Shown one piece after another: positions 32,797 through 47,922 of a stretch of 64,000 nucleotides of DNA. Source of the stretch: Novibacillus thermophilus (GTDB lineage: Bacteria; Bacillota; Bacilli; Thermoactinomycetales; Novibacillaceae). The notes beneath the pieces are model-generated. The model ran no database searches. It saw only the letters and a list, made by a program, of their open reading frames with translations, and was not told where the DNA came from. Position 1 is the first letter of the stretch. Each line of letters begins with the position of its first letter. The position numbers were made by a program, and so were the translations under genes. Where the stretch lies: the NCBI RefSeq assembly GCF_002005165.1, contig NZ_CP019699.1, positions 1,488,001-1,552,000 on the forward strand. The letters are read 5' to 3'.

Positions 32797-33642
32797 ATGA
32801 TGACAACGAAGGTATTACAAGAAACAGACGTAACGTTAAAAGTTGTACACGAGAGTGATGAGGATGTTCGCGAACAACAACTAAAAGAAGCATGGGAAAA
32901 GGTGTATGGTGCGCGTCAAAATAACTCCGTTCTGATTAATCCGTTAAGCGGGATTGAGCAAGTTCAGGGTAAGACCGTTGGTGTGGTCATGATCGACAAT
33001 CTCATTAAAGGAATCATTCCATTAGAACACTCTGGATGTGAGAACGCCAGGCAGCTTAGCCGTTTAATTGGACAAGATGTTTATTTTAAGGTCACTGCTT
33101 TGGATAGGGAAAGTCGTCAGTTTGCTGCCTCCATTCAAGCCGGCGTAGAACACGTGCAGGGATTGACGTGGGATCAATTGCAGGAAGGGATGAAGGTTGA
33201 AGCGCGAATTACGGATGTGTATATGAAAAGGATGGTGTTGGACATAGGCGCCATTCCAGTCACACTTCCCGCCGAGGAGGTCAGTCATGGATGGATTGAT
33301 GATTTAAGGGGCGAATTCAAACGAGGGGAACGAATACAGGTGCGCGTAACGGAGCTTGACAAGGAGGAGAAAAAGCTAACTGTCAGCCGAAAAGCCGCCC
33401 TTCCAAGCCCGTGGCCGGATTGTATGCAACGGTACGTTGAGGGGGGGATTTATCCGGGGACCGTTTCAGGGAAAGAAGAATACGGGACATTTGTCAACTT
33501 GGAACCAGGTGTGGATTGTCTTGCTCCCCATACACATCCACGGGTAGGAACCGTCGGCAAAGGCGATAACGTCTTTGTTAGAGTACGACATGTGGATCCG
33601 ATGAAGCAAAGGATAAGCGGAAGAATTGTTCGCAGGCTCTGA
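32797..33642 (+). CDS. S1-domain RNA-binding protein
   Basis: A 281-residue protein with two clear S1/OB-fold modules and a degenerate third: about residues 130-195 (LQEGMKVEARITDVYMKRMVLDIG, ending KKLTVSRK) and 205-280 (GIYPGTVSGKEEYGTFVNLEPGVDCLAP), plus a weaker one at 50-115. It resembles ribosomal protein S1-like proteins found in Gram-positive plasmids. Possible roles are translation control or RNA chaperoning of element transcripts. ATG 32797 follows AAAGGAG. Confidence 0.8.
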   Translation: MMTTKVLQETDVTLKVVHESDEDVREQQLKEAWEKVYGARQNNSVLINPLSGIEQVQGKTVGVVMIDNLIKGIIPLEHSGCENARQLSRLIGQDVYFKVTALDRESRQFAASIQAGVEHVQGLTWDQLQEGMKVEARITDVYMKRMVLDIGAIPVTLPAEEVSHGWIDDLRGEFKRGERIQVRVTELDKEEKKLTVSRKAALPSPWPDCMQRYVEGGIYPGTVSGKEEYGTFVNLEPGVDCLAPHTHPRVGTVGKGDNVFVRVRHVDPMKQRISGRIVRRL

Positions 33643-34501: not shown

Positions 34502-34530
34502 TTGACGCAATAAAAAAAGTGGCGTAATCT
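34502..34530 (+). promoter_or_regulatory. SigA-type promoter of candidate RNA 1
   Basis: TTGACG (34502-34507) and TAATCT (34525-34530) with a 17-base spacer, immediately upstream of the structured RNA. Confidence 0.65.
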
Positions 34531-34536
34531 AAATGT

Positions 34537-34858
34537 AGATTGTGTTATATTGTTAACTTTGCAACCGTACAAAGTTACGGGAGTTGCTATTAATGCAAGG
34601 TTAAGGCCATGTACGCCCCAGTCCATATTGGACTGAGCAGACGAGGATGGCACAAAGGTCATTGAACGCGACATGTTCAGTGATGGTTTCCCCTTAGTCC
34701 CGGCCGTGATTGGTTAGCAGGACATAGAGGGGAATGGTGTAGTTCTGGAAAAGATCCATTTAATCTATGCTTAGTTGAGCATGGGGAAAAATGGGTTTCA
34801 GTATCTTAACGAAAAAGGCGTATTGATTCCCTTAAAGGGGATTAATGCGCTTTTTTTG
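34537..34858 (+). ncRNA. Candidate structured RNA 1, paralogue of the RNA at 40866
   Basis: A 320-base region without a gene, with its own promoter and terminator. Stems seen: GCAAC-CGTA with TACGG-GTTGC (34561-34586), CAGTCCA/TGGACTG (34619-34635), CATTGAAC/GTTCAGTG (34660-34682), TTCCCCT/AGGGGAA (34688-34734) enclosing GTCC/GGAC, and the terminator GCGTATTGATTCCC/GGGGATTAATGCGC with T7 (34818-34858). The core GAGCAGACGAGG and TTAGCAG are shared with the second copy, while stems keep pairing despite changed bases. The class was not identified. Confidence 0.7.
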
Positions 34859-34892
34859 TTTTTCAAAAAAACCTTTAGAGGAGGAGATTTAC

Positions 34893-35282
34893 ATGTCTAA
34901 AGTACAAGTGCTTTTAAACGAGTAGCACACACTTCTGCCTGATCAGGAGCGTGTGCTGAACGAAAAATTTCAGGAGGGTTGGATTACTCGTCCCATCCCC
35001 CAACATGGGTGGACCTTGGACGAGCAGAAGAGGATAGCAGACGAATATGAGGGTTCAGATGTATCATCCCTCGTATTCGCTAGTCCGGTTCCCGTGCTAT
35101 TAGGGCTGTTGGCCAGCAAGTCTGGATATAGCGAGTTGGCTGACAGGCACAACACGGGCCGGGTTATCCAGACTCCGGCGGTTTACATTTTTCATAACGA
35201 CCGCCGCGAAAAAAAGGAGCTACCGAATGGGAGAATTATCCATAAGGTAGCCGAGAAAGGATGGGAGATCGTTCCGGTTTAA
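34893..35282 (+). pseudogene. Small unknown gene interrupted by an in-frame TAG
   Basis: ATG 34893, correctly spaced after GAGGAGGAG, reads MSKVQVLLNE and then TAG (34923-34925); the same frame stays open to 35282 for about 118 more codons (HTLLPDQERVLNEKF...). The sequence after the stop looks like a conserved soluble protein. A CAG-to-TAG change is the simplest cause. Internal restart at GTG 34953 (behind a GGAGC-type site) is possible and would give 109 residues. No family recognised. It directly follows candidate RNA 1. Confidence 0.55.
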
Positions 35283-35307
35283 GGGCGGTCTCTTCAGTTT
35301 CAAAAAA

Positions 35308-35345
35308 AAGACGTATTTACCCAAAAGGGTGAGTGCGTCTTTTTT
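35308..35345 (+). terminator. Rho-independent terminator
   Basis: A 15-base-pair stem, AAGACGTATTTACCC with GGGTGAGTGCGTCTT (several G-U pairs), AAAA loop and T-rich tail. Confidence 0.85.
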
Positions 35346-35380
35346 ATATAAAACTTTTTAAAAAAGAAGGAGGATGCCAA

Positions 35381-36280
35381 ATGGCATACCAAGAGTATGA
35401 ACAAACCCCAGATTTCGTCCTTGAACGAGCGAAGGAGGAACATGATCGAGCTGAAACCCTGTACAAACAGGCAAAGGCACGCATTCCTGAGAAATACCAT
35501 GATTTTTTGATGCGACTTGAACAAGGTGTAAAGTTGTTCTCGAAAAACATGATTGGGAATGATAAAAAGGCCCGCGAGCTACGTCTCTGGGGGACTGATA
35601 AGGGGACATATGTCACCATCTCTCTCCCGTATGTCACAGTAGACGGAAGAGTGCAGATGGCGCGTGATGAACACAGAAAGGCGGGAAAGAAACTCAACAT
35701 TCTTCCTGCTGAGATATCCGACAACGGTAAGTATTTATCAGTCACCGTCGAATCCGAATTGCTCGGATCAGCGACAGGCTCGGTGATGATTAACGTTGGA
35801 GGAAAAGGGGTGGATCGAACGAATCCGCTCGAAAATGCAGAAACGTCTGCGGTTGGCCGGGCACTCAGCTTTCTAGGCTACGGTCTTGTCGGCACCGGCA
35901 TCGCCAGTGCTGAAGAGATTGAAAATGCCAAGAAAGCACAAAACGAATTAAATAAAAAAGAAAAGTCGGATTCCGATAATGTGGTTGATTTCAAACAAAA
36001 GGACAACCAATCATCCACTCAAAAGGATGAGAGTGAATTAAAGCCCAATTCCCAATTCGTTGATATGAAAGCTATAGCGACGAAGGCAGGAGACCCATGC
36101 TACGAACTAATATTCAAAGCAGGGGAACGCGAGGCAAAGGTTTATGCCATTGGCGATATGTTCGATTACATTGACCAAGTTGCTGAAAGTCTGGTGGAGA
36201 ACGCACATTGCTACATCGAGACCGAGAAAAAGGAAGGTAAACTCGTCCTTCAAGAACTGAAGGTGGTACACAGTGCCTAG
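35381..36280 (+). CDS. Putative ssDNA annealing/recombination protein
   Basis: A 299-residue protein starting ATG 35381 behind AAGGAGG. The stretch NPLENAETSAVGRALSFLGYG (about 146-166) is a hallmark of phage-type single-strand annealing proteins related to ERF/Rad52-like families. A Lys/Asp/Ser-rich linker (about 185-225) leads to a small C-terminal domain. SSB, a primase-type zinc-finger protein and RadC follow, supporting a DNA recombination or replication role. Family-level assignment is tentative. Confidence 0.55.
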   Translation: MAYQEYEQTPDFVLERAKEEHDRAETLYKQAKARIPEKYHDFLMRLEQGVKLFSKNMIGNDKKARELRLWGTDKGTYVTISLPYVTVDGRVQMARDEHRKAGKKLNILPAEISDNGKYLSVTVESELLGSATGSVMINVGGKGVDRTNPLENAETSAVGRALSFLGYGLVGTGIASAEEIENAKKAQNELNKKEKSDSDNVVDFKQKDNQSSTQKDESELKPNSQFVDMKAIATKAGDPCYELIFKAGEREAKVYAIGDMFDYIDQVAESLVENAHCYIETEKKEGKLVLQELKVVHSA

Positions 36281-36632
36281 AATTCTCGCCGCCTTCAAAA
36301 AGAAAGAAGACGAGCGGACACTTTTTTTGTCCATCTCGTCTTCATCACATACGGGGGAATACCTCATAGGTATTTCCCTGTTTAAAGACAAAGTTATTAT
36401 CGCACACGATTGTCCCCAGATCAAGTTCAGAAAACGGTCTTGTAAGCATGCATACCTTGCTTATAAGGCGTTTCAGAAGCATTTGTGGTGGATTGATTTA
36501 AGCGATAAGAACTTTGTCATCAAACGGAAAGACGTTGTCCTTTCCCCCGAATGGATACAAATTCCCATCCCTGGTACCCCTCCTGATTTTGGAGAGAATG
36601 AAGGGGGTAAGGAACATGTCCATTCTGCCTAA
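36273..36632 (+). CDS. Small protein with a SWIM-like Cys/His motif
   Basis: A 119-residue protein starting GTG 36273, overlapping the previous stop by eight bases. The segment HDCPQIKFRKRSCKHAYLAYKAF (about 49-71) resembles the C-terminal half of a SWIM zinc finger (C...CxH). The rest is mixed alpha/beta. Its 3' end overlaps the next gene by 17 bases, so the three genes are translated as a unit. Function unknown; nucleic-acid binding is likely. Confidence 0.55.
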   Translation: MPRILAAFKKKEDERTLFLSISSSSHTGEYLIGISLFKDKVIIAHDCPQIKFRKRSCKHAYLAYKAFQKHLWWIDLSDKNFVIKRKDVVLSPEWIQIPIPGTPPDFGENEGGKEHVHSA

Positions 36633-37368
36633 CATCGTCCATGTGGCACTCGAGAAGGGCCTTACCGTTGACGAAAAAACGTTAGGCAAAGATGAGGTTC
36701 GTTTCATCTGCCCGTGGTGTGGAGATGAAACGAACAAAGGGAGACGACGGCGTAAATACCATCTTTCCCTTAATCCGAATCCCGGAAAGAACATCTACAA
36801 ATGCTGGTACTGTCACGAAAATGGCGGTGTGGTAGACTTTATCGCCAAACTTGAAGGCAGAACGGCGGAAGATGTACTTGATGGGATAAAAAAGGAAAAA
36901 GGCATTTCAACTAAAAAACGTCCGCCTCGTCATCCATTTGAAACATTGTCGTACAACCAATTAAAGCTGATTGGTTATGACCCGGATATACGAGGACGAA
37001 TGATAGAGTTCCGCAAAGTTGATCCGTATCTCGCACGAAAAAAGTGCGACGAGATATGGGAAGATTGGCAAGCCTTTCAGGAGCAAGAAAAACGAAAGGC
37101 CTTCAAGCGGCTTCTTGCCGGTATTAAAACCGGGAAATACGCCGCAGCCATTCACGACATTGAGGAACGTTCAAGAGACATCGGACACGATTTGCTGCCC
37201 GATGTTTTTCATATATATGGGCAGCCTAACCCGCCGGAATGGTCGGTGGCTGCTCGTCAACTTGTCGATCGAATCGCAAATCTCACCCCTTCTGAGACAA
37301 AAGCCGTCTTGGATGTATTTAAGGAGATTGCGATTTCGGTCGAAGAAAGAACACAAAAAAAAGCTTAA
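36616..37368 (+). CDS. CHC2-type zinc-finger protein (DnaG primase N-terminal-like)
   Basis: A 250-residue protein starting ATG 36616 after AAGGGGG. Zinc ligands CPWC (about 32-35) and CWYC (about 62-65), followed by NGGVVDFIA, match the CHC2 zinc ribbon of DnaG-type primases. The TOPRIM catalytic domain is missing: the remaining 170 residues are helical and charged. It may load on ssDNA as an accessory primase subunit or be a derived regulator. Neighbouring ssb supports a DNA-replication role. Confidence 0.75.
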
Positions 37369-37421
37369 CCGTCGGGCAAAAAAGACGGTCACCCGCTAAG
37401 GGTGGAAAGGAGACGAAAAAG

Positions 37422-37838
37422 ATGATAAACCGCATTGTAATAGTCGGACGTTTGACAAAGGACCCGGAACTACGTTACACGCCGAATGGGGTAGCAACTA
37501 CTACTTTTACACTGGCGGTGGAACGCCCGTTTACCAATCGTGATGGAAACCGTGAGGCTGATTTCATCCGTATCGTAACGTGGAGAAATTTGGCCGAAGC
37601 TTGTGCGAACTACTTAAAAAAGGGTCGCTTAGCCGGAGTAGATGGTCGTTTACAAATTCGTTCTTTTGACGGGAATGATGGAAACCGAGTAACCTTATCG
37701 GAAGTTGTCGCTGATAATGTTCGGTTCTTGGAGCCGAAAGATGGCAATAAGAAGTCGAACACATCGGATGAATACAACGATCCGTTTGGTGGCCAAACAG
37801 AGTCGTTAGACATTTCAGACGATGAACTCCCCTTCTGA
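37422..37838 (+). CDS. ssb: Single-stranded DNA-binding protein
   Basis: A 138-residue SSB with a full OB fold beginning [20 protein letters not shown] and containing [12 protein letters not shown], and the acidic C-terminal tip DISDDELPF used to recruit partner proteins. It protects ssDNA during replication and after conjugative entry. ATG 37422 is preceded by GAAAGGAGA. Upstream lie two small hairpins (ACCGTC/GACGGT at 37368-37389 and CACCC/GGGTG at 37390-37404). Confidence 0.95.
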
Positions 37839-37919
37839 TGGGGTGTAATTATTAATATCAAAAGCGCCACGGGCAAAAGAAACCCAAAACTTTGAGACAA
37901 AATGGGGAGGTTTGAGAAA

Positions 37920-38231
37920 ATGTGTGGAAACCCTTTTCGTATATGGGATGAGGTTGATGGGGAATTTGTGGTAGAAAGGATCATGACAGAAATAATTGGA
38001 TATGACAAAGATGACTTAGTTTGGGATGAGAACGAGGGGCACGAATACCTAACACTCAACCAAATACTCGGTCAGGTCATGGAAAAAAATAAAACCGAAC
38101 TGAACGGGACGATGCCCTTTTTGAGGGTTGAGTACGAAAGTGGTTTGTGGGGCGTCATATTTGAGGTTGGCAACCATCCTGAAAAAGAAAGGCAATGGGT
38201 TGTTCACGGAATTACCAAAGGATACGCCTAA
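37920..38231 (+). CDS. Small unknown protein
   Basis: A 103-residue acidic protein. ATG 37920 is nine bases from GGGGAGG, which makes it a better start than the in-frame ATG 37902 that overlaps that site. Aromatic-rich strands near the C-terminus (GLWGVIFEVG) suggest a small beta domain. No family recognised. It lies between ssb and radC. Confidence 0.55.
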   Translation: MCGNPFRIWDEVDGEFVVERIMTEIIGYDKDDLVWDENEGHEYLTLNQILGQVMEKNKTELNGTMPFLRVEYESGLWGVIFEVGNHPEKERQWVVHGITKGYA

Positions 38232-38284
38232 AGCACTTTTTGTTGATACTGTATAACAACACGCCTTCCACCGGGCAGATAAAC

Positions 38285-38312
38285 GAGTGGCACATATAGG
38301 TACGTGCCACTC
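38285..38312. promoter_or_regulatory. Perfect inverted repeat upstream of radC-like gene
   Basis: GAGTGGCAC (38285-38293) and GTGCCACTC (38304-38312), ten-base loop, no T tail, 30 bases before the radC-like start. It could be an operator or an mRNA hairpin. Confidence 0.5.
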
Positions 38313-38342
38313 GGCACTGCCTGTATGTGGAAAGGGAAAACA

Positions 38343-38990
38343 ATGAGCCAAAAATATACGGATAGAGTTAGAGAGCAGTTGTCCTTTTACTCAGCGAACC
38401 AAACGGAACTATCGGACTTATTCGCAGTTCTCATTGGTGGCAAAGGGGCTACTCCTGAAAGATGCCAAAAACTCGCTGGAATCGGACTCGAGGAACTAGC
38501 AGAAATGTCCTTAGAGGAATTGGGCGAATACGTCCCAAAAACAGCAGCAGAACGTATTTACGCTGCTTTTGAACTGGGTTGGCGTACTATCAAAGTGAGA
38601 AGTAGAGGGCAACGAACAATCCTTCGTTCCCCACAGGATGCAGCCGACTTTGTGCGATCCGAAATCGCACATGAGAAACAGGAACACTTTGTCGTCCTGC
38701 TCCTTGATGTAAAAAACCATCTAATCGGGCAAGAAACGGTGTTTATCGGTAGCTTAAATGCATCCATTGCACACCCAAGGGAAATTTTTAAAACTGCAAT
38801 CAGGAGAAGTGCGGCTGCTATTATTTGCCTACACAACCACCCAAGCGGTGATCCGCAACCATCTGCTGAAGATCGAAATGTGACTAGACGATTAAAAGAG
38901 GCTGGTGAGGTGGTTGGCATCGAGTTGCTGGATCACATCATTATTGGCGAAGAAAGATTCTATAGTTTTCGAGAACACGATCTTTTGTGA
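38343..38990 (+). CDS. radC: RadC-family (MPN/JAMM) protein
   Basis: A 215-residue protein with an N-terminal helix-hairpin-helix-like region (about 25-70) and a C-terminal MPN(+) domain (about 95-215) carrying the JAMM metal motif HNHPSGDPQPSAED. RadC homologues are common on plasmids and ICEs; the biochemical function is unresolved. ATG 38343 is preceded by GGAAAGGG; the upstream frame to 38304 runs through a hairpin and is unlikely to be translated. Confidence 0.88.
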   Translation: MSQKYTDRVREQLSFYSANQTELSDLFAVLIGGKGATPERCQKLAGIGLEELAEMSLEELGEYVPKTAAERIYAAFELGWRTIKVRSRGQRTILRSPQDAADFVRSEIAHEKQEHFVVLLLDVKNHLIGQETVFIGSLNASIAHPREIFKTAIRRSAAAIICLHNHPSGDPQPSAEDRNVTRRLKEAGEVVGIELLDHIIIGEERFYSFREHDLL

Positions 38991-39024
38991 TAAACTATCA
39001 GTAGGAGCTTTCGGAGGGATATCA

Positions 39025-39348
39025 ATGGAAGATATGCTAAAACAAATTCTTACTGAAGTTCGTTCAATGAATGAACGGTTAGAAAATGTTGAGAAAGAGA
39101 CAAGCAAGATACCGTCAATTGAAAAAGACGTTTCAGAATTGAAACAAGACGTTGGCAGCTTAAAACAAGACCTTCAAAACCTTAAAAAGGGCCAAGAAAG
39201 CATCCCTGCGATGCAACAGGCCATCTTTGAAACGAACGAAACCGTCAAAGACATTGCTAAAAATACTAACGAAAAAGTAAACGAACACGATTTGGCTATC
39301 CAAGCCTTGAACCGGCGTCTTCTGTACGTCGAAGCGAAGGTTGAGTAA
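39025..39348 (+). CDS. Coiled-coil protein
   Basis: A 107-residue protein starting ATG 39025, six bases after GGAGGGA. Nearly the whole length is heptad-rich (SELKQDVGSLKQDLQNLKK), so it should form a dimeric or trimeric coiled coil. There is no membrane segment. Similar small coiled-coil proteins occur on Bacillus plasmids with unknown roles. Confidence 0.6.
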   Translation: MEDMLKQILTEVRSMNERLENVEKETSKIPSIEKDVSELKQDVGSLKQDLQNLKKGQESIPAMQQAIFETNETVKDIAKNTNEKVNEHDLAIQALNRRLLYVEAKVE

Positions 39349-39406
39349 GCGTAGGTAAAAAAAGCCGGAAAATCATCCAGCTATAAAAGGTGTATATAAC
39401 CAAGGA

Positions 39407-39441
39407 CCCACGATTCGCTGATGCGGCTCGTGGGTTTTTTT
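39407..39441 (+). terminator. Rho-independent terminator
   Basis: CCCACGA/TCGTGGG stem, 14-base loop, seven T. Confidence 0.85.
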
Positions 39442-39473
39442 ATGTTTTTTTCTATTATTCATTTCCTTTTCGC

Positions 39474-39503
39474 TTGACAAAATACATATATATGTAATAA
39501 TAA
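39474..39503 (+). promoter_or_regulatory. Promoter with a palindromic operator in its spacer
   Basis: TTGACA (39474-39479) and TAATAA (39498-39503) with an 18-base spacer containing the perfect 14-base palindrome TACATATATATGTA (39483-39496). A related ATATGTAA lies further down. A repressor bound here would block RNA polymerase directly. Confidence 0.6.
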
Positions 39504-39543
39504 TATATAAATATGTAACTATGAAAGAGAGGAGATGACTAAA

Positions 39544-39864
39544 GTGGCAGTTGTACAGAATGTCAAAACATTTGAGCAGATAGCCATTCCTATCGACTTT
39601 CTGCCACCAAAACCGGACAGAATCATTCGGTCTTGCCCGAACAACCCAAAGCACGAGGTATATGGCGATTGTGCCCACCTTGGGGGTAGAATGTGGCTCT
39701 GTGCTGATTGTGGCATCGAATGGCGCATTGATCGAAAGAAGGAAAACATGGTGTACTATCAGATTGACGAGGAGGGGAATGCGGAAATAATTCGGAAGGT
39801 ACCATTGAGGATGTTTCCGGGACTTAAGTTGCGCGATGGAGAAGAAGTGCGAAAGGTTGGATAA
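39544..39864 (+). CDS. Small zinc-ribbon-like protein
   Basis: A 106-residue protein. GTG 39544 is nine bases from AGAGAGGAG and preferred over ATG 39535, which abuts that site. Cys pairs SCPNNP...DCAHLG and LCADCGIEW (about residues 32-60) suggest a zinc ribbon. The gene follows a promoter with a palindromic operator and ends 17 bases before a transposase remnant on the opposite strand. No function known. Confidence 0.55.
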   Translation: MAVVQNVKTFEQIAIPIDFLPPKPDRIIRSCPNNPKHEVYGDCAHLGGRMWLCADCGIEWRIDRKKENMVYYQIDEEGNAEIIRKVPLRMFPGLKLRDGEEVRKVG

Positions 39865-39881
39865 TAACAAACGCAGCAACT

Positions 39882-40735
39882 TCACCGTGTCAAGCGTCTG
39901 TGTGCTTGGGTCAACTCCGGCAGCACCTTATTGGCTGTCTCAATGGTGTCTATACCCCGCAAGCGCAACTCGGGAATCCAGCGGTCCTGCAGCGTTTGGA
40001 ACAGCCGTTCAACACGCCCCTTGGCTTGAGGTGTGAAAGCCTTGATGTGCGTAATGCCTAATTCTGCAAGGGCTTGCCCGAATTGCGACAAAGGCACAGG
40101 TTCTCCTGCCAGCTCCTCTTCAATCGTCTGCTTTTCGTTTGGAGAACGAAAAATCATATGGCGGTCCGAATACACAGACATCGGAATCCCCTCTTTCTCA
40201 ATCATTTGCTGTGTGAGCCTGAAATAGCCTTCGGTATCCTCTTGTGGGCGGAATATCGCCGCGAGTATCTTTCCCGTCGCATCATCAATGGCGGCAAGAA
40301 GCGACATCGGTTTTGCCCGATCCTCTAACCAAGCGTGAGGGCTACCGTCCATCTGAACTAACATACCTGCCTGTGGTTTGCGTTCCCGTGGGCGATGCAC
40401 CTTTGCCGGACGCCGTTTGCGTTTTGGTGGAATGCCGGCATCGGAGCGAATACGCCGCACCGTGGAGGGACTAACCCGAATCCCTTCATTCTTGGCTAAC
40501 AATTCAGCAAAATGCACATCATTGCAGCCTCTATACGCATCACTCTGGTGTAGCGCAAGAGAATCATTTGGCGCGTCTCGTCGGAAAAGGCATGTGCCGG
40601 TTTGCGTCCTTTGTTTTTGTGGATGATGCCTATTTCTCCCTCCTCCAGCACGCGTTTTTTTGAGACGGATAACCTGGCGGTAACTTAAACGGAGCAATTC
40701 GGCAGCTTCACCTCCTGTGATCAGACCTTGGATCC
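39882..40735 (-). pseudogene. Degraded ISNCY/IS1202-like transposase
   Basis: Reverse-strand remnant of a DDE transposase. The catalytic core is readable: VQMDGSPHAWLED with the first Asp, AAIDDATGKILAA with the second, and a later Glu region after PQEDTEGYF. The N-terminus (helix-turn-helix GEAAELLRLSYRQV, about 40690-40730) is in another frame, with frameshifts near an A7 run (about 40660) and near 40545. The C-terminus is cut at 39882. No intact terminal repeats were seen. Inactive. Confidence 0.8.
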
Positions 40736-40830
40736 ATCTTTAAAATATTCTCTCCCATAATAGGACATTTTCACTGAAGCGTTACGATATGACAATATCA
40801 CTGACGAACAACAATTAGTCAATAATTTCC

Positions 40831-40859
40831 TTGCACCTAAACGTCTCCTGTTGTATCCT
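40831..40859 (+). promoter_or_regulatory. SigA-type promoter of candidate RNA 2
   Basis: TTGCAC (40831-40836) and TATCCT (40854-40859), spacer 17 bases, directly upstream of the second structured RNA. Confidence 0.55.
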
Positions 40860-40865
40860 TATAGT

Positions 40866-41210
40866 AGTTTCCTTATACATGGCATTGTCCTGCTTAAAAT
40901 TAGAATGACCTATTACCTAATTAGATTAGTAAGTAGGGCAGTGGGTCGTGTACGTCCCGGTTGGTTTACCCAATTGAGCAGACGAGGGCGACACAATACG
41001 TTTTAACATAGCATGTTTAGTGTTGAAACGCATATTCTTCCGTACACCGGTGCCGTTGTGCATTAGCAGTGAGGGGGAGAATTAGAGTAGCATCCTTAGC
41101 AAAGAAAGTCCGCAAGACACCTAGGATAGCTGTGTCTAAAACGGGCTTTTAATATTTTAAGACGAAAAAGGCGTATTGATTCCCTAAAGGGGGTTAATGC
41201 GCCTTTTTTT
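40866..41210 (+). ncRNA. Candidate structured RNA 2, paralogue of the RNA at 34537
   Basis: A gene-free region of about 345 bases. It shares with RNA 1, in order: GTACG(T/C)CCC, a short hairpin (here GGTTGG/CCCAATT), GAGCAGACGAGG, an A/U-rich stem (ACGTTT-AACA with TGTT-GAAACG), an ATTCTTCC/GGGGAGAAT stem around TTAGCAG, and the same terminator (GCGTATTGATTCCC/GGGGGTTAATGCGC, then T7). Pairing is kept while bases change. It lies between the transposase remnant and the LysM-methyltransferase-helicase genes. Confidence 0.7.
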
Positions 41211-41247
41211 ATTTCCAAAAAACGAAAGGAGGGCATGGCCCATAATT

Positions 41248-41556
41248 GTGGTCATGCCCTTTGGCGTGGCTGCAGTTATGTGGCCGCACCAAATGAAGCT
41301 AAAGATTATTGGGATCGCGGTAGTTGCTATTTCCCTGTTAACCGCTATTGTCGGTTGGGGAAGTGATAAACCGCCTATCGAAAAAGAGCCTTACACCGTT
41401 CAAGAGGGTGATACTCTCTGGCACATTGCGAGTGAGCGGTGGGAAGGAGATCCCCGGGAAGGTGTGAGGTGGATACGGGAGAAGAATTCTCTCGAATCAC
41501 CTATTATTCATCCGGGAGAAACAATTTTAGTACCAAAAAAGGAGGAAACGGAGTAA
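41248..41556 (+). CDS. Small membrane protein with LysM domain
   Basis: A protein of about 102 residues with one N-terminal transmembrane helix and a C-terminal LysM motif (YTVQEGDTLWHIASERW ... IIHPGETILVP), which binds peptidoglycan. The start is uncertain: GTG 41248 or ATG 41254 lie beyond the AAAGGAGG site (41224-41231), and GGGCATG (41231-41237) can pair with CATGCCC (41252-41258) across the start region. The stop overlaps the methyltransferase ATG. Confidence 0.75.
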   Translation: MVMPFGVAAVMWPHQMKLKIIGIAVVAISLLTAIVGWGSDKPPIEKEPYTVQEGDTLWHIASERWEGDPREGVRWIREKNSLESPIIHPGETILVPKKEETE

Positions 41557-42587
41557 TGGCGAGGCTTGAATCCGAAAGCAAAGGCGGCTACTATCCGACG
41601 CCGAGTAAAGAAATGGCCCACATTTTGAAACGTGTCGTCGCGGACTATGGTGCGCGTGTCACATTACTCGACCCGTGTGCGGGAAAAGGTGAAGCCCTCA
41701 GGCAAGCGCAAAATCACTTGCTGAAAATAGGTGCTGGTCCCGTCTCTTATGGGATTGAAATCGAAAAAAACCGCGCGGAAGCAGCGGCAGGACTGCTGGA
41801 CCACACAATTTCGTGTGGTTATGAAGATGCGAGAATGAGCCACAAGGCATTCTCGTTTCTTTATCTCAATCCCCCTTTTATGCAAGTAGGAAGGGAGCGA
41901 AGTGAAACAATTTTCTTTCGTGACCTTACACAAGCAGACAGTTATTTGACCGATGGGGCGTTGGTTATCCTGAACATTCCGCAGTACGTTTTGGCGGATG
42001 TGGCAAGACTGATCGCCATTCGGTTAGAAAATGTCAAAGTGTACCGGTTCACGGACGAAAATTATCCGTTATACAAGCAGATCATTGTATACGGGTATCG
42101 CAAAAAGGCTGGTACAGGGTGTGATACCGCGCTTCATCAAGAGCTGGTATGGCTGTCGCGCAGCTCGGGTAACGCACTTTCTGTTCTTGATGAAGAGGAC
42201 GGGGTGCAATACAAAGTCCCGGAGCCGATGCGGACAGTGGAGTTGTTTCAATCGGGAATCGTCGAGCTTGATGACATTTTCCAGTCCTTGTCTGAATGTG
42301 ACTTTCTTAACAAGGTTACAGACAAGATCAAGGCCGTCAAATTGGAGAATGCCAAAGCACAAAACCCGGCGATGCCGCTCAAATTGTCGCATTACGCGAC
42401 GGCGATTGCAGCAGGTGCACTCCCAGAAAAAATGGGGGATCACATGCTCGTTGGGGTCACTAAAAGAGTGCAAACAGAACGCACGGAAGTGGACAATGAA
42501 ACAGGTAAGGAGAAAGAAACCGTTACCTTTAGACCAAAGTCACTCGTCCGTGTGTTCTCAAAACAAGGGATTTTTGACCTTGAATAG
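41556..42587 (+). CDS. DUF6094-like class I DNA methyltransferase
   Basis: A 343-residue protein starting ATG 41556. SAM-binding motif I is LDPCAGKG (about residue 38) and catalytic motif IV is NPPF (about 106), as in N6-adenine DNA methyltransferases; the layout fits DUF6094 proteins of conjugative elements. The C-terminal 130 residues are of unknown fold and may read DNA. It lies directly upstream of a giant SNF2-type helicase, with a regulatory leader between them. Likely modifies element or recipient DNA; target sequence unknown. Confidence 0.78.
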   Translation: MARLESESKGGYYPTPSKEMAHILKRVVADYGARVTLLDPCAGKGEALRQAQNHLLKIGAGPVSYGIEIEKNRAEAAAGLLDHTISCGYEDARMSHKAFSFLYLNPPFMQVGRERSETIFFRDLTQADSYLTDGALVILNIPQYVLADVARLIAIRLENVKVYRFTDENYPLYKQIIVYGYRKKAGTGCDTALHQELVWLSRSSGNALSVLDEEDGVQYKVPEPMRTVELFQSGIVELDDIFQSLSECDFLNKVTDKIKAVKLENAKAQNPAMPLKLSHYATAIAAGALPEKMGDHMLVGVTKRVQTERTEVDNETGKEKETVTFRPKSLVRVFSKQGIFDLE

Positions 42588-42607
42588 AGACTTCTAAAAA
42601 CCAAAAC

Positions 42608-42686
42608 AAAGGAGGGTAAGCCCTCTTGCATTGCAAGTAAATGCGGGAGGGCGGTCGCCCCTCGCATCTTCTTTGCAAGGGGCGAC
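42608..42686 (+). promoter_or_regulatory. mRNA leader with hairpins masking the helicase ribosome binding site
   Basis: GTCGCCCCT (42654-42662) pairs perfectly with AGGGGCGAC (42678-42686), which contains the AAGGGG site for ATG 42689. Upstream, GCCCTC (42620-42625) can pair either with GAGGG just before it (42612-42616) or with GAGGGC at 42647-42652. A complete AAAGGAGGG site at 42608-42616 precedes a four-codon frame (TTG CAT TGC AAG TAA). The arrangement suggests translational control by alternative folding. Confidence 0.6.
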
Positions 42687-42688
42687 TG

Positions 42689-45600
42689 ATGCTTAAAATT
42701 CGAGTAGAGGAAGATGGAAAATCATTCGAGGCGTTTGTCAAAATGCTCATGATTAAACCTAAGCAGTTTGAATGGGAAGAGGAACGAATCGTCGGCATGG
42801 CCATTGCCGGGAATACAACGGCTTGCCGTGCGATACATGCCTCGGCGTATAGCCATTCACCATTCGTTGTTTTTGATGATGAAACGGGTGAAGAAAAGTC
42901 ATACCGACCGACGGGTCATTACCGACGGGTTGAGGAAATAAACGGCAAAGTCTGTCATATGTTTCTCTTGCCTCGCTTAGCTATACAAGATGAGTATAAT
43001 CAAGAACTCATCCAAGCGGAGCAAGAGGAAAAACCAAAACCGGATCGGGTGATTATCGCCCCGGATGGAGAAGTCGAAAAGGCTGCTGGGCGTTTCCTCG
43101 CTCACACCTACGGACTACCGCGATCGGAGGAATGGGTGGCGAAGTACCTTTCCATTCTTCCGGAAGAGAAGTGGTCCGAAATCAGGTGTGAGACAACACC
43201 TCTTATGAGAGATTGGCAAAACGTCCGCGCTGTTCACATCCATTCAATGGAAGAGCAGGAAGTCTTAGATGCTGTTCAACAGGCGATACACAATAACGTG
43301 CTTAACGTCTACAGCAGCATCGGAGGCGAAGCCGTCTTCCGGAAAGGGATGAGTACCGAGAATTATCTTCGGGAAAACGCCGAAACCCTTGCCGGTCACT
43401 TAGACCGGTACATGACACCGCAGTATGACGGAAGTCACTTTGACCGTTATATTGGAGAAACAAAACGGGTGAGCGTTCCTGCCCAAGCAAGAGTGATTAT
43501 GGGAGCTCTAACCGTTCTCAAAAAACAAAACTCCGTTTTTATCGTCGGAGATATGGGCACAGGTAAAACACAGATATCCCTAACAGTCATTTATTCCATG
43601 ATGAAACAACGAACGGATAGTGGGGCTAAAGACGGTTTGCGTGTCCTTATTGTCGCACCGGCGATTACGATCCCAAAGTGGGCAACCTCTGAAATTCCCA
43701 CAGTACTGGGACAATACCGGCAGACAACAATCGTTTTGAGCACAACGGAAGATGCGCTGACCTACGTTCGTAAGGTAAGAAACGGTCATAAGCCACCAAA
43801 AAACACGATAGAGTTTGTCCTCGTCTCAACTGACCGAATGAAGCTTGGGGCGAGCAGACATGTGTTAGGGGCAAGATGGAACAATCGGGATCACACATGG
43901 CGCTGCCCCGATTGCGGAAATCCGATCATGACCCCGGACGCGAAAGCAGAAGATGAATTCGCGGGATGGAGAGATGCCGTCAGTGACCCAAAAAATCCAC
44001 CAACAGAGGCTGAATTTTCGGCGGCAAGACGTACGGGCAATTTGGAAGCAAACGGTTTGCCTAAAAGTTACGTCAAAAAGTGGAACAATAAGATCCGCCG
44101 ATTTCAGTGTAATAATTGCACACCGGAAGGTAAGCAGAACCGTTCGTTGACACGTCCTGCCTTAAAACAACGCGGCGAGGATAAAATGAAAAATCGTTGG
44201 ATGATCGCGCAGATTTTCCAGCGAATGCTGCCTAACCATTTCCATGTTGGTATTTTTGACGAAATCCAACAAATGAAGGCGAGCGATAGCGGACGTGGCG
44301 TCGCTTTTCACAAGATACTAAAGTCTTGTCGGAAGGCCGTGTTTCTAACCGGGACGCTCACGAACGGTGCAGCAAGCTCCATCCAAGCGACGTTATGGCG
44401 CAGTGATCCTAAATCTTTGTTGGACGAAGGGTTCACACATGCCACCACTGCTGAGAAATGGGCGTATAAATACGGTGTTTTGGAACGTGTGACACACCGG
44501 GATGATGAAGGTGTCACCGGTGTGACAACAAACCGACGCAAAGAACGTGTCATTATCAAGGAAAAACCGGGGATCGCACCACAGCTTACGGCGAATCACT
44601 TACTCCACAAATCAGTGTTTATTGAGTTGAGTGATTTGGGACTGCCGTTAGTGAAGTTAAAAGAGATTCCCGTCATCGTAGACCTTGAGGAAGAACACGC
44701 TGAGGCGTACCAAACATTTCATCGGGATTTGTATAACACCTGTCGCGATATGCAGCAGGAATTGGGAACGGTAGCATGGTCACGGTTTAATCCGGCTACT
44801 CTGAATTATGCGGATCAGCCGCAATTGGGGCAGGAAATTGAGTTCAGAGCCAGGGATGGTGGGCTCTTACGCTCGGTGACTGCTCCGGATTTCTCGGAGG
44901 ATTATCTGACTTCCAAAGATAAAAAGATGGTGGAAATTGTCCAGAGAGAATTGGCAGAAGGTCGTGGTTGTCTGATCTTCACCAATTTCACAGGTTATTA
45001 CCGAACCAACGAACGGGTCCAAAAGGTACTTTATCGTCACGGGATTTCATCTGAAATACTCGATACGAAAACAACACCTTTGAGACGATTCGAGTGGTTG
45101 GAAGAGCAAAGGCGCAAAGGTACAAAGGTTCTTATTATGAATATGAGCCTTGTGCAAGTCGGATTGGATATAGTCAACTGGCCAACGATTTTGTATTACC
45201 AGTTGAACGACGATATTAATGTTATTCGGCAGTCCTCGCGGCGAGGATGGCGGCTGGGGCAGTCCAAAGAATGCCGTGTTTACTTCCTTGTCAATGGAGG
45301 GACACAGCAATTTAACCAGTTCCAACGTCTTATGAGTCGCCGCATTAACGCCATGCTCGTGGAAGGACGTATTGAACGTTCCGATAGCCTTGCGAAATAC
45401 GCGCAAGACGACATGAGCCACTTGGAACGGGATCTTTCCAAGAGTCTTGCTGCTAGTGAATTAGCAGACAAGTGGAGATCCGCTGCCGAAAAGGATGTCG
45501 ATAAAGAACTTGAGATGGTAGAGGAATCCGAGTTGAAGGCTCGGATCAAAGAAGCCTTTACCGAATTGACCGCTGAAACAAAGCGGCTGTGCGGTATCCC

Positions 45601-45787
45601 TGTAGATACGGCGAAGCTGAAAGAAGCCAAAGAAGTGGAAGTTGCTGCAGAACCGGCTTCCGTATCGACTGCCATGGAACAAATTGATCTGTTCGATTAC
45701 TTGGAACAGTTCACCGTTGAAAAAGTACAGATAAAACGCAGAGGAAAACCTGTGCAAGAAGTTGAGCAGATGACCATCGCGCTCTAA
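42689..45787 (+). CDS. SNF2/SF2-type helicase
   Basis: A 1,032-residue superfamily 2 ATPase. Walker A is VGDMGTGKTQ (about residue 290), the Walker B-type box is FDEIQQM (about 523), motif III TGTLTNG (about 555) and motif VI QSSRRGWRLGQSKECRVYF (about 850), typical of SNF2-like enzymes. Two Cys pairs inserted in the first RecA domain (CPDCGNPI near 406 and CNNC near 475) form a zinc ribbon. It probably translocates on dsDNA. Paired with the DUF6094 methyltransferase. The start follows the masked AAGGGG site. Confidence 0.85.
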   Translation: MLKIRVEEDGKSFEAFVKMLMIKPKQFEWEEERIVGMAIAGNTTACRAIHASAYSHSPFVVFDDETGEEKSYRPTGHYRRVEEINGKVCHMFLLPRLAIQDEYNQELIQAEQEEKPKPDRVIIAPDGEVEKAAGRFLAHTYGLPRSEEWVAKYLSILPEEKWSEIRCETTPLMRDWQNVRAVHIHSMEEQEVLDAVQQAIHNNVLNVYSSIGGEAVFRKGMSTENYLRENAETLAGHLDRYMTPQYDGSHFDRYIGETKRVSVPAQARVIMGALTVLKKQNSVFIVGDMGTGKTQISLTVIYSMMKQRTDSGAKDGLRVLIVAPAITIPKWATSEIPTVLGQYRQTTIVLSTTEDALTYVRKVRNGHKPPKNTIEFVLVSTDRMKLGASRHVLGARWNNRDHTWRCPDCGNPIMTPDAKAEDEFAGWRDAVSDPKNPPTEAEFSAARRTGNLEANGLPKSYVKKWNNKIRRFQCNNCTPEGKQNRSLTRPALKQRGEDKMKNRWMIAQIFQRMLPNHFHVGIFDEIQQMKASDSGRGVAFHKILKSCRKAVFLTGTLTNGAASSIQATLWRSDPKSLLDEGFTHATTAEKWAYKYGVLERVTHRDDEGVTGVTTNRRKERVIIKEKPGIAPQLTANHLLHKSVFIELSDLGLPLVKLKEIPVIVDLEEEHAEAYQTFHRDLYNTCRDMQQELGTVAWSRFNPATLNYADQPQLGQEIEFRARDGGLLRSVTAPDFSEDYLTSKDKKMVEIVQRELAEGRGCLIFTNFTGYYRTNERVQKVLYRHGISSEILDTKTTPLRRFEWLEEQRRKGTKVLIMNMSLVQVGLDIVNWPTILYYQLNDDINVIRQSSRRGWRLGQSKECRVYFLVNGGTQQFNQFQRLMSRRINAMLVEGRIERSDSLAKYAQDDMSHLERDLSKSLAASELADKWRSAAEKDVDKELEMVEESELKARIKEAFTELTAETKRLCGIPVDTAKLKEAKEVEVAAEPASVSTAMEQIDLFDYLEQFTVEKVQIKRRGKPVQEVEQMTIAL

Positions 45788-45804
45788 ATAACCTTTGTTT
45801 ACGT

Positions 45805-45854
45805 CCCCTTCCTAGCGGGGGAGTTAAATCAAACTCCCCCAGTGCTAGGTGGGG
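45805..45854 (+). other. Long intergenic stem-loop
   Basis: CCCC-tt-CCTAGC-GGGGGAGTT pairs with AACTCCCCC-agt-GCTAGG-t-GGGG: 19 pairs with small internal loops. There is no T tail. It sits 18 bases after the helicase stop and 12 bases before the next ribosome binding site. Confidence 0.75.
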
Positions 45855-45878
45855 AGTGAATAAAGGAGATATGTTCAA

Positions 45879-46700
45879 ATGTTAAACGCTGTATCACTCT
45901 TGGAGGAATTTGTCGAAAGTGGAGATTATCGGGAGTGGAAACAAGCGGAACACGAATTATCCATTGTAAGAAACGAATTTAAACGTTTTTTGAAAGAGGA
46001 TGAAATGCGAAGGGATTTTTCGCAAATGGGGATTAACCTCGTCGCTAAGTACCGACGAATCCCCGTGTATGAAGTAGATCATGAAGGGCTTAATCGTTAT
46101 CTCCACGAAAATTACGGATTACTGATTCCTGTTTCTACATTAGACACGGGGATTAGAAAGGACAATCCGGAATTGTGGGAGGCGTTAGGGGATTATCAGC
46201 TTCCCAACGAATGGTACGTTCGGTTCACCCCGAACAAGGCCGGGCGTGCGGAAAAGGAAGATGTTGATTACTCTTTAAACCTTCGTGAGTTGAGTAATGC
46301 TTTTTACGATTTAAGCGAACGTGTAGAGAGCTACAAAAAGACTTACGAAGATATTCGGGAAAAGTTGATGAAAGACAAAGAACTTCAGTTAAGTCGAAAG
46401 GTCCAAACAAAGTTTGGTTCAGTGTCCATGCAGGCGAAACGACCGGAATTCGATATGAAAAGGATTCTGCAAGAGTATGGCGAGGATTTTCTGATACATC
46501 ATGCTCGGGTACGAATGAAGGAACTCGACCATTTCATTGAACGTGGTTATATACGCAAACACGAAACAGATCAGTTCCGAAAAGTTACGGACATCCGTTT
46601 AGCCTTTATTGTGCAGAAGTTGGATGCTGAGCAGAGGCAACTTGAAATGCTCGATCGGAGGACAAACCGAATGGTCGAAGCATTGCGAGGTATTGGCTAA
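45879..46700 (+). CDS. Unknown helical protein
   Basis: A 273-residue charged soluble protein (ATG 45879 after AAAGGAGA). Predicted mostly helical, with a central coiled-coil-like stretch (SERVESYKKTYEDIREKL) and a Lys/Arg-rich segment near residues 165-185. No catalytic motif recognised. It lies between the helicase and the sliding clamp, so a DNA-replication or host-takeover role is plausible from context only. Confidence 0.6.
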   Translation: MLNAVSLLEEFVESGDYREWKQAEHELSIVRNEFKRFLKEDEMRRDFSQMGINLVAKYRRIPVYEVDHEGLNRYLHENYGLLIPVSTLDTGIRKDNPELWEALGDYQLPNEWYVRFTPNKAGRAEKEDVDYSLNLRELSNAFYDLSERVESYKKTYEDIREKLMKDKELQLSRKVQTKFGSVSMQAKRPEFDMKRILQEYGEDFLIHHARVRMKELDHFIERGYIRKHETDQFRKVTDIRLAFIVQKLDAEQRQLEMLDRRTNRMVEALRGIG

Positions 46701-46734
46701 AAATCAGGGAAAACACACTTGTGTTTACAAAAAA

Positions 46735-46770
46735 ACGCACTGATCCCCTTTAGGATTGGTGCGTCTCTTT
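46735..46770 (+). terminator. Rho-independent terminator
   Basis: ACGCAC-TGATCC pairs with GGATTG-GTGCGT, then a CTCTTT tail. The sequence is similar to the terminators of the two candidate RNAs. Confidence 0.65.
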
Positions 46771-46803
46771 ACTCTTAAAAAACATTTCAAAGGAGAGGTT
46801 TCC

Positions 46804-47922
46804 ATGTTTGTAACTGTCCAAAAATCTGTATTGGCGGAAGCTTTGGCAAAAGCGGCTCGTATGGTAGCGAAAGGGGATACCATACCAATCCTTAACTGCA
46901 TCAAATTCACTGCGACAGACGAGGGTATCCGCTTAGTTGGCGGGAATACGGCACACACCATCGAAGTTCACATTCCGGCAGACAACGACAGCGTCATCAT
47001 CGAAAAAACCGGAAGTATCGTGTTGCCGGCGTTGCTTCGTGAAATTGTCCGGAAGTTGGAGCAAGAGGATGTCACCATTCAGACGAATGGTGATTTGATC
47101 ACAACCATCAAGTCCGGGGAAGCAACTTTTCAGCTCAATGGGATTGATCCCGAAGAATATCCATCCCAGACTCTTAAGAATGCGGGACGCGGAGCGTTCA
47201 CTTTAACGGGTGAAAAGCTGAAAGATTTCGTCGCCAAAACTGCACACTCCGCAAGCAAATCTGGCACAAGACCGGTTTTGGAAGGGGTGTTCGTACAGAC
47301 AGGTGAAGGAAAATTAAAATTCACTGCCACAGATTCCCACCGCCTGTCATTGATCGAACGGTTGGAAAAAACAAAAGAACCCTTGGAAGCTATTGTACAC
47401 CGAGACTCTTTCGTCGAACTCGTTCGGGTTGTGGACGAGCAAGATGAGGTGGAAATCACCCTGGCGGACAACTGGCTTGTTGCTGAGACCAAGGGAATGA
47501 TTTTTCGCTCCCGTCTTCTTGAGGGAAATTATCCCAATGTGGATCGAGTTATCCCTCAAGATTATACAACAAAGGTAGGTCTAAACCGATCAGAACTTCT
47601 CTCTGCTCTGGATCGCCTTTCAATTTTAACGTCTAACAAGGTTGTTAAAATGTCTGTGAAAGAAATAGACATTAGTCATGTCGTCGAATTAGAAACCGCA
47701 GAAGCAGAGAAAGGTTCAGCTCAAGAAATGTTATTCGTTGAAGGTTTTGAGGGCGAGTTGCTGGAAATTTCCTTCAACGCCGGATATGCGATTGAGGCAT
47801 TAAAAGCGTTAGAGGATACAGACGTTATTTTCGGCTTTACCGGTGAGCATTCGCCATTTACGATAATGCCAAAAAATGAAGCAGGTGAACTACAACTCAT
47901 CTTGCCGGTGAGGGCAAGCTAA
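46804..47922 (+). CDS. dnaN: DNA polymerase III beta subunit (sliding clamp)
   Basis: A 372-residue protein, close to the usual 370-380, with three clamp domains and typical segments: NCIKFTATDEG, KFTATDSHRLSL and the FTIMPKN-LQLILPVR ending. It tethers polymerases and other partners to DNA. Housekeeping bacteria carry one dnaN near dnaA; this copy lies amid conjugation genes and so is an element-borne duplicate. ATG 46804 follows AAAGGAGAGG. It may help the element replicate with the host polymerase. Confidence 0.95.
   Translation: MFVTVQKSVLAEALAKAARMVAKGDTIPILNCIKFTATDEGIRLVGGNTAHTIEVHIPADNDSVIIEKTGSIVLPALLREIVRKLEQEDVTIQTNGDLITTIKSGEATFQLNGIDPEEYPSQTLKNAGRGAFTLTGEKLKDFVAKTAHSASKSGTRPVLEGVFVQTGEGKLKFTATDSHRLSLIERLEKTKEPLEAIVHRDSFVELVRVVDEQDEVEITLADNWLVAETKGMIFRSRLLEGNYPNVDRVIPQDYTTKVGLNRSELLSALDRLSILTSNKVVKMSVKEIDISHVVELETAEAEKGSAQEMLFVEGFEGELLEISFNAGYAIEALKALEDTDVIFGFTGEHSPFTIMPKNEAGELQLILPVRAS

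Follow-up and report, generated by a model that had tools for sequence, protein, structure and literature searches.

The 64-kb stretch of the Novibacillus thermophilus genome analysed here (the window; NZ_CP019699.1, positions 1,488,001 to 1,552,000) holds two structured RNAs, R1 and R2, within a mobile element. These structured RNAs are real, and each stands in front of a mobile-element operon and ends in a transcription stop signal. They are two paralogous copies of a leader RNA. The original prediction, made from the sequence of the window, had described them as bracketing a DNA-processing module; instead, each is a 5′ leader that belongs to the operon downstream of it, and one to three copies stand ahead of the same operons in other elements. 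In total, 11 such leaders were counted in five related elements: the Novibacillus element, a Brevibacillus marinus plasmid and the elements of three genomes from the same class, G494, G456 and G516. We consider the chances evenly balanced that R1 and R2 are paralogous 5′ leaders of an element-encoded antitermination system, like LoaP/dfn, conAn or canT but with a different RNA. Coordinates are positions in the window unless marked as genome positions.

The leader RNAs R1 and R2

Every sequence block named in the original prediction was found at its claimed position in R1 (34537–34858) and R2 (40866–41210), and a pattern scan of the 3.63-Mb genome for GTACGYCCC followed after a gap of 4–30 nt by GAGCAGACGAGG returned these two sites only. 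Between the two copies, the terminator regions show 86% identity over 72 nt (E = 3.6e-15). With the terminators excluded, R1 and R2 have eight collinear 7-mers in common, against a mean of 2.4 in shuffled sequences (maximum 8 in 500 shuffles), and their similarity on its own is thus only moderately beyond chance. The stems that had been proposed are paired in the predicted folds of both RNAs, which without their terminators beat all shuffles (0/200 each; z-scores given below). Each RNA had furthermore been credited with its own terminator and its own promoter of 17-nt spacing. The intrinsic terminators are in place; the promoter hexamers are likewise present, but such matches are not above chance, since the region holds 12 of them against a mean of 10.0 in shuffles, and these 12 include neither of the proposed pairs. 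The parts of the two leaders are as follows.

34502–34530, plus strand: promoter-like hexamers TTGACG-17-TAATCT before R1, seen in the sequence and the best match of the anatomy script; of a class not above chance
34537–34858, plus strand: leader RNA R1, whole; fold z-score −7.8 with and −4.1 without its terminator; similar leaders in four other elements
34606–34651, plus strand: R1 module 1, with GCCAU/AUGGC helix, GUACG bulge, CC/GG, CC, hairpin AGUCCA/UGGACU and GAGCAGACGA
34688–34734, plus strand: R1 module 2, variant core UUAGCAGGAC within UUCCCCU/AGGGGAA (predicted fold, by eye)
34812–34857, plus strand: R1 intrinsic terminator, long stem and then a T-run (script)
34879–34895, plus strand: ribosome-binding site (RBS) AGGAGGAG and ATG after the R1 terminator; the frame ends at TAG after 10 codons
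35333–38990, plus strand: operon behind R1, coding for a 315-aa protein, a 119-aa protein, a primase-type protein, SSB, a 109-aa protein and RadC
40831–40859, plus strand: weak promoter-like hexamers TTGCAC-17-TATCCT before R2, not above chance; the script favoured another pair
40866–41210, plus strand: leader RNA R2, whole; fold z-score −6.7 with and −3.3 without its terminator
40945–40992, plus strand: R2 module 1
41034–41082, plus strand: R2 module 2, variant core UUAGCAGUG within AUUCUUCC/GGGGAGAAU (predicted fold, by eye)
41165–41210, plus strand: R2 intrinsic terminator (script)
41225–41238, plus strand: RBS AAAGGAGGG with its start codon, downstream of the R2 terminator
41439–47922, plus strand: operon behind R2, coding for a DUF6094 methyltransferase, a helicase, a 273-aa protein and a dnaN-type clamp

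The first frame behind the R1 terminator (34893–34925) has a good RBS and ATG and meets its TAG after 10 codons; beyond that TAG the frame is open for 109 aa from 34953. It may represent either a first gene that has been disrupted or a leader peptide. Within this coding region, 34984–35040 gave a third, weaker match of both module models (17.7 and 18.0 bits), which was left out as chance or a relic given its location in a coding frame. In the operon behind R1, the CHC2 zinc-finger match of the primase-type protein is weak (22.1 bits, under the cut-off of 24.9). Behind the R2 terminator, an inverted repeat seen by eye (GGGCATG..CATGCCC, 41228–41262) overlaps the RBS and start region.

A recurring module in related elements

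The nearest element is the 101-kb B. marinus plasmid NZ_CP034542.1, which was found via its DUF6094 protein and a 266-aa hypothetical protein, and whose intergenic regions contain three RNAs (BmA, BmB and BmC); the elements of G494, G456 and G516 carry three, two and one leaders, respectively. The core of the module consists of an outer helix, a 5′ bulge, CC, a hairpin, GAGCAGR on the 3′ side and a helix. Leaders usually have two modules, the second often weak. Our first descriptor found four of the six B. marinus modules and the first covariance model five, and the second modules of R1 and R2 were missed by both module models; the one in R2 was identified by eye, and the one in R1 is by eye the counterpart of B. 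marinus module 2. The relatives give stronger support than the two copies by themselves. When the two window modules and the six of B. marinus were aligned, 87.8% of cells paired, compared with 35.5–42.9% for slid partners, in an alignment with hand-placed rows, a procedure that favours the structure; 10 of the 15 paired positions were altered on both sides across the eight modules.

Similar modules in other elements, compensated stems and the absence of an Rfam match support the view that these RNAs form a functional structured family. There were no Rfam matches at gathering score in the window, R1 and R2 fit no Rfam family, and their weak matches fall mostly on the terminators. raiA and the other large bacterial RNAs, which had been suggested as candidates, are ruled out as far as Rfam 15 contains them; we take it that this release includes raiA, EAR and similar families, and scans for weak hits returned nothing credible. 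In a scan of six related loci, the leaders were without match and the sole match was a HEARO RNA outside them, at L120 16805–17024 in the G494 element (149 bits).

A TraG profile matched 18 of 398 genomes of the class at 1e-60, and the strongest 14 were followed, the four weakest (G762, G628, G466 and G601) being dropped. The contigs of G501, G010, G508 and G460 were too short to judge the presence of the RNA, which was found in five of the ten judgeable genomes. Downstream of TraG, no module was seen in nearly 40 kb each of G668, G684, G779 and G042, or in about 18 kb of G021. The G456 element has two leaders in which the first modules are clear and the second weak; its first modules have the loop AAAAGGGGUAA in common and, by eye, their stem changes from GUUAUUC/GAAUAAC to AUCAUAGC/GCUAUGAU. 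The membership of G494 and G516 is based on motif, hairpin and position and not on model score. Eight matches to the descriptor CC-stem(5+)-GAGCAGR were obtained in 1.36 Mb of strand from elements outside the seed set of the first model. Six of these matches lay in leaders: four fell within 42 mechanically defined leaders (three are G494 paralogs) against an expectation of 0.11, a flattering probability as the descriptor was chosen after the sites had been seen, and two fell in G456 leaders. The 42 are those of 43 mechanically listed leaders that remained after one overlapping entry was dropped.

The search tools were limited in both sensitivity and specificity. A scan of the 398 class genomes with the first model convincingly recovered Novibacillus and B. 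marinus (G644, with the coordinates of the plasmid) only and missed G494, G456 and G516, so that its sensitivity is low; single matches in G563, G003 and G027 were regarded as chance. The same model gave the G456 modules E-values of 0.05–0.08 with a false match ranked top, and its best match in the later elements, L135 14438–14492 (E = 0.014), was counted as false, being a simple hairpin upstream of ssb. The first descriptor placed six of ten matches in leaders, with its top score (L030) outside them, and all seven of its matches in S1-protein elements of the wider phylum were judged false. Exact-pattern matches in viral and genome contigs, mostly in coding DNA, were judged to be chance. No further record came out of BLAST searches with R1, run on plasmids and phages, or with the BmC, G494c and G456a leaders, run on plasmids. 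Scanning viral contigs by TraG yielded a single partial locus, L099, which lacks the module.

The copies have diverged from each other and are tied to operon fronts, and for this reason we rejected both copy-number control and a mobile repeat family as explanations; the plasmid-control role that had been raised in the original prediction is without support.

Leader anatomy and operon positions

In all 11 leaders, our script located an intrinsic terminator 213–355 nt past the module core and before the first RBS, followed by an RBS and start codon 24–157 nt beyond the T-run. The distance from T-run to start codon is 24–55 nt in six leaders, or in seven if R1 is counted by its ATG: the script gave 89 nt for R1 as it skipped the first ATG (34893, the 10-codon frame), which is about 35 nt away. 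The general anatomy of an antitermination leader (structured RNA, terminator, operon) is therefore present in 11/11, its promoter part being weak, and every leader precedes co-directional genes.

The positions of the leaders recur across elements. An operon of the same primase-like/SSB type lies behind R1, BmA, G494a and G456a, and one of the dnaN/DUF6094/helicase/RadC type behind R2, BmB, G494b (with dnaN about 3.4 kb downstream) and G516a. DUF6744 follows BmC and G494c, where the downstream proteins are 46% identical over 295 aa. The genes downstream of G456b are beyond the contig end.

An element-encoded NusG paralog

The Novibacillus element codes for a NusG paralog, a 271-aa frame at genome positions 1476423–1477238, 11.6 kb to the left of the window and directly upstream of recD2. 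An annotated NusG family protein adjoins recD in the B. marinus record, and four further elements have a NusG paralog beside recD2. All six paralogs tested pass the Pfam NusG model (27.6–36.2 bits, cut-off 22.2), with no Pfam KOW match listed for the six, and they score far under the cut-offs for housekeeping NusG. A profile built from these six proteins was positive in 12 of 14 element-bearing genomes, six of which had supplied it, and each time the match lay beside recD2; G516 and G508 gave no match. In a phylum sample of 329 genomes, only that of Novibacillus reached 1e-12 with this profile. An element-specific NusG paralog is present in four of the five RNA-bearing genomes and is the best candidate partner of the RNA, which may be of the protein-binding type considered in the original prediction.

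Three of the paralogs (L148 2938–3867, L146 8522–9451 and L151 13029–13973) have a long insertion within the NGN domain, and their Pfam match is only partial. In G494, recD2 (L167 2560–3729) is 81% identical over 392 aa to that of the Novibacillus element, the NusG paralogs being far less alike. A second related element in the Novibacillus genome itself (L068, L069, L185 and L186; genome positions 3200001–3280000) has an identical NusG paralog and recD2, and behind its homologues of the S1 and 266-aa proteins comes a transposase gene that by eye looks IS256-like; a search by exact pattern found no R1 blocks in it.

The sister element of G042, which has its own NusG paralog, carries a different recurring leader type with hairpins and terminators on the minus strand. 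Three of these leaders are linked by alignment, and one precedes DUF6744, a place that is also held by BmC and G494c. The case of G042 suggests that RNA type and NusG paralog change together across elements.

L134 2788; L135 2998, 8476 and 16361, minus strand: G042 leaders, with TATGCGCATA in three of the four
32797–33642, plus strand: S1-domain protein of the Novibacillus element, conserved in the element type and an alternative RNA partner

Proposed mechanism and alternatives

From what was computed (the RNA family, the conservation of its modules, the leader position, the terminator before the RBS and the element-specific NusG paralog) we infer transcription, protein–RNA contact, read-through and the role of the NusG paralog as partner. 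Transcription would begin upstream of the leader, and the nascent leader would fold into its GAGCAG modules. RNA polymerase would then halt at the terminator just before the first RBS unless the antiterminator of the element acts. The folded modules may recruit, or act together with, the element-specific NusG paralog, upon which the polymerase would read on into the primase-like/SSB/RadC operon behind R1 and the DUF6094/helicase/clamp operon behind R2. Since the terminator lies just before the first RBS and most leaders leave little room for another promoter, the operons are probably expressed by read-through. A bolder form of this proposal is possible, although we lean against it: a new class of antiterminator RNA, made of repeated GAGCAG internal-loop modules, would be paired in lock-and-key fashion with fast-diverging NusG paralogs within one conjugative-element family, with each element thereby confined to reading its own operons and sister elements using other RNA types at the same operon fronts.

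Several observations weigh against antitermination by RNA and NusG paralog. The RNA of G516 comes without a NusG match, and conversely the stretches read of G668, G684, G779, G021 and G042 lack this RNA although each of the five has a NusG paralog. The paralogs lie far under the cut-off of the NCBIfam LoaP model (125 bits), scoring 30.9 (P0002), 24.3 (P0001), 26.2 (L155), 19.0 (L146), 19.0 (L151) and 15.6 bits (L148), and a UNCG hairpin of at least four pairs was found in none of 15 leaders (11 of the GAGCAG family and four of G042). A second covariance model gave E-values of only 2.2–2.5 to G494a, one of its own seeds, and to G494c, which is nearly identical; G516, also a seed, was absent from its matches up to E = 3. 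The promoter hexamers are no better than chance. Terminators within the element are not enriched (5 of 53 co-directional gene pairs, a count that did not include the R1 and R2 gaps, versus 9 of 98 across ten chromosomal samples of 20 kb), and a processive reading through many terminators is unsupported; in part of the B. marinus plasmid, terminators were found in 15 of 67 gene pairs, a figure without a chromosomal control. The operons of G494a and G456a may have promoters of their own, as TTGTAT-17-TATAAT follows the first terminator of G494a (by eye) and TTGAAA-17-TACACT the terminator of G456a (script). Finally, the terminator stem of R1 is very long, with about 25 pairs (25 by the anatomy script, up to 20 in a second count), and extraordinarily long terminator stems reportedly resist processive antitermination, to go by the title of a 2023 paper.

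Some of these observations would fit other mechanisms. The leader might act alone as an antiterminator that binds RNA polymerase, with the NusG paralog serving another target. This would agree with G516, with the anatomy seen in all 11 leaders and with the precedents put, EAR and canT, which are described as binding RNA polymerase or thought to do so (PMC8955417, PMC11658703, as far as these accounts extend), but the co-occurrence with the NusG paralog in four of five genomes speaks against it and we regard it as unlikely. Less likely again is that R1, R2 and their relatives are independent non-coding RNAs, terminated at about 320 nt and with a function of their own, the genes downstream being under other promoters. 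The strong terminators, that of R1 having its very long stem, and the hexamers past the terminators of G494a and G456a would suit such RNAs, as would the more than 60 nt that separate the last terminator from the start codon in BmA (94), G494a (64), G456a (75) and G516a (157); against this, the shorter spacing in the other six leaders (seven with R1 by its ATG) could hardly accommodate a promoter, if at all, next to an RBS, and all 11 leaders lead into co-directional genes.

A ligand- or protein-sensing attenuator, in which a riboswitch-like tandem aptamer switches the terminator by means of a competing anti-terminator hairpin, is if anything slightly more doubtful than stand-alone RNAs. Two similar modules ahead of a terminator do resemble tandem aptamers, and only 3% (R1) and 2% (G494b) of 60 shuffles equalled the pairing between leader and terminator arm in these two leaders. 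In the other nine of 11 leaders, however, no competing pairing stood out, 10–83% of shuffles doing as well, so that a mechanism that acts in trans or modifies the polymerase seems likelier than attenuation; the DNA-processing genes downstream, moreover, suggest no obvious ligand. It is very improbable that the S1-domain protein replaces the NusG paralog as the RNA partner and that the leader controls RNA stability or translation. This protein is conserved in the element type, and R1 comes two genes after the gene that codes for it, but S1 relatives occur in other elements of the wider phylum whose fetched stretches yielded no credible module, and in the leaders a terminator separates RNA from RBS.

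Comparison with known systems

Few antitermination mechanisms have been described in Gram-positive bacteria, three by the count given in the part of PMC12691694 consulted. The same portion presents LoaP as a NusG paralog that acts with the dfn leader hairpin in Bacillus velezensis. A NusG paralog, a structured 5′-leader element, an intrinsic terminator in the leader and a Gram-positive host are common to LoaP/dfn and to our elements (PMC12691694); in contrast to the small UNCG hairpin outlined there, the RNA described here is about 300 nt long with GAGCAG modules. The paralogs also differ from LoaP in falling far below its model and in having the DNA-processing operons of the element as proposed targets. 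The conAn system of pLS20-type conjugative plasmids, comprising the ConAn1 protein and conAn2 RNA, is likewise a bipartite RNA and protein antitermination system on Gram-positive conjugative elements according to the sections seen of PMC8955417; our RNA, unlike conAn, is repeated before replication and DNA-processing operons, and conAn is set apart by description only.

With canT (Tn916), EAR (eps operons) and put (phage HK022), RNA of the nascent transcript makes the polymerase resistant to terminators, as portrayed in excerpts of PMC11658703 and PMC8955417. The leaders differ from these RNAs in having no Rfam match, canT being set apart by its description. RfaH uses a DNA site, ops, and plasmid-borne NusG paralogs have been proposed to antiterminate long transfer operons (PMC7593976, in the passages at hand); the mobile-element NusG paralogs are alike, whereas the recurring signal in our elements is a structured RNA. 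Literature searches around this element type and RNA returned no paper that describes it, as judged by titles and the openings of abstracts. To that extent the RNA family is new, and its mode of action is most likely a variant within the antitermination kind already known.

The RNA class is notable in that copies of it precede several operons within one element, keep their position across elements and have an element-specific NusG paralog nearby. If the proposed mechanism holds true, these leaders would offer a compact system in which to test how RNA polymerase is altered by a large folded RNA together with a NusG-like protein, and how mobile elements silence their genes while resident in the chromosome but can still switch them on as a regulon.

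Other features of the region

A short frame ahead of the dnaN-type clamp gene is LysM-like by eye. Between the RadC operon and R2, two frames lie on the minus strand (39373–40697), one of which has an integrase-core (rve) match of 24.2 bits (cut-off 32.6); these frames are probably an insertion sequence.

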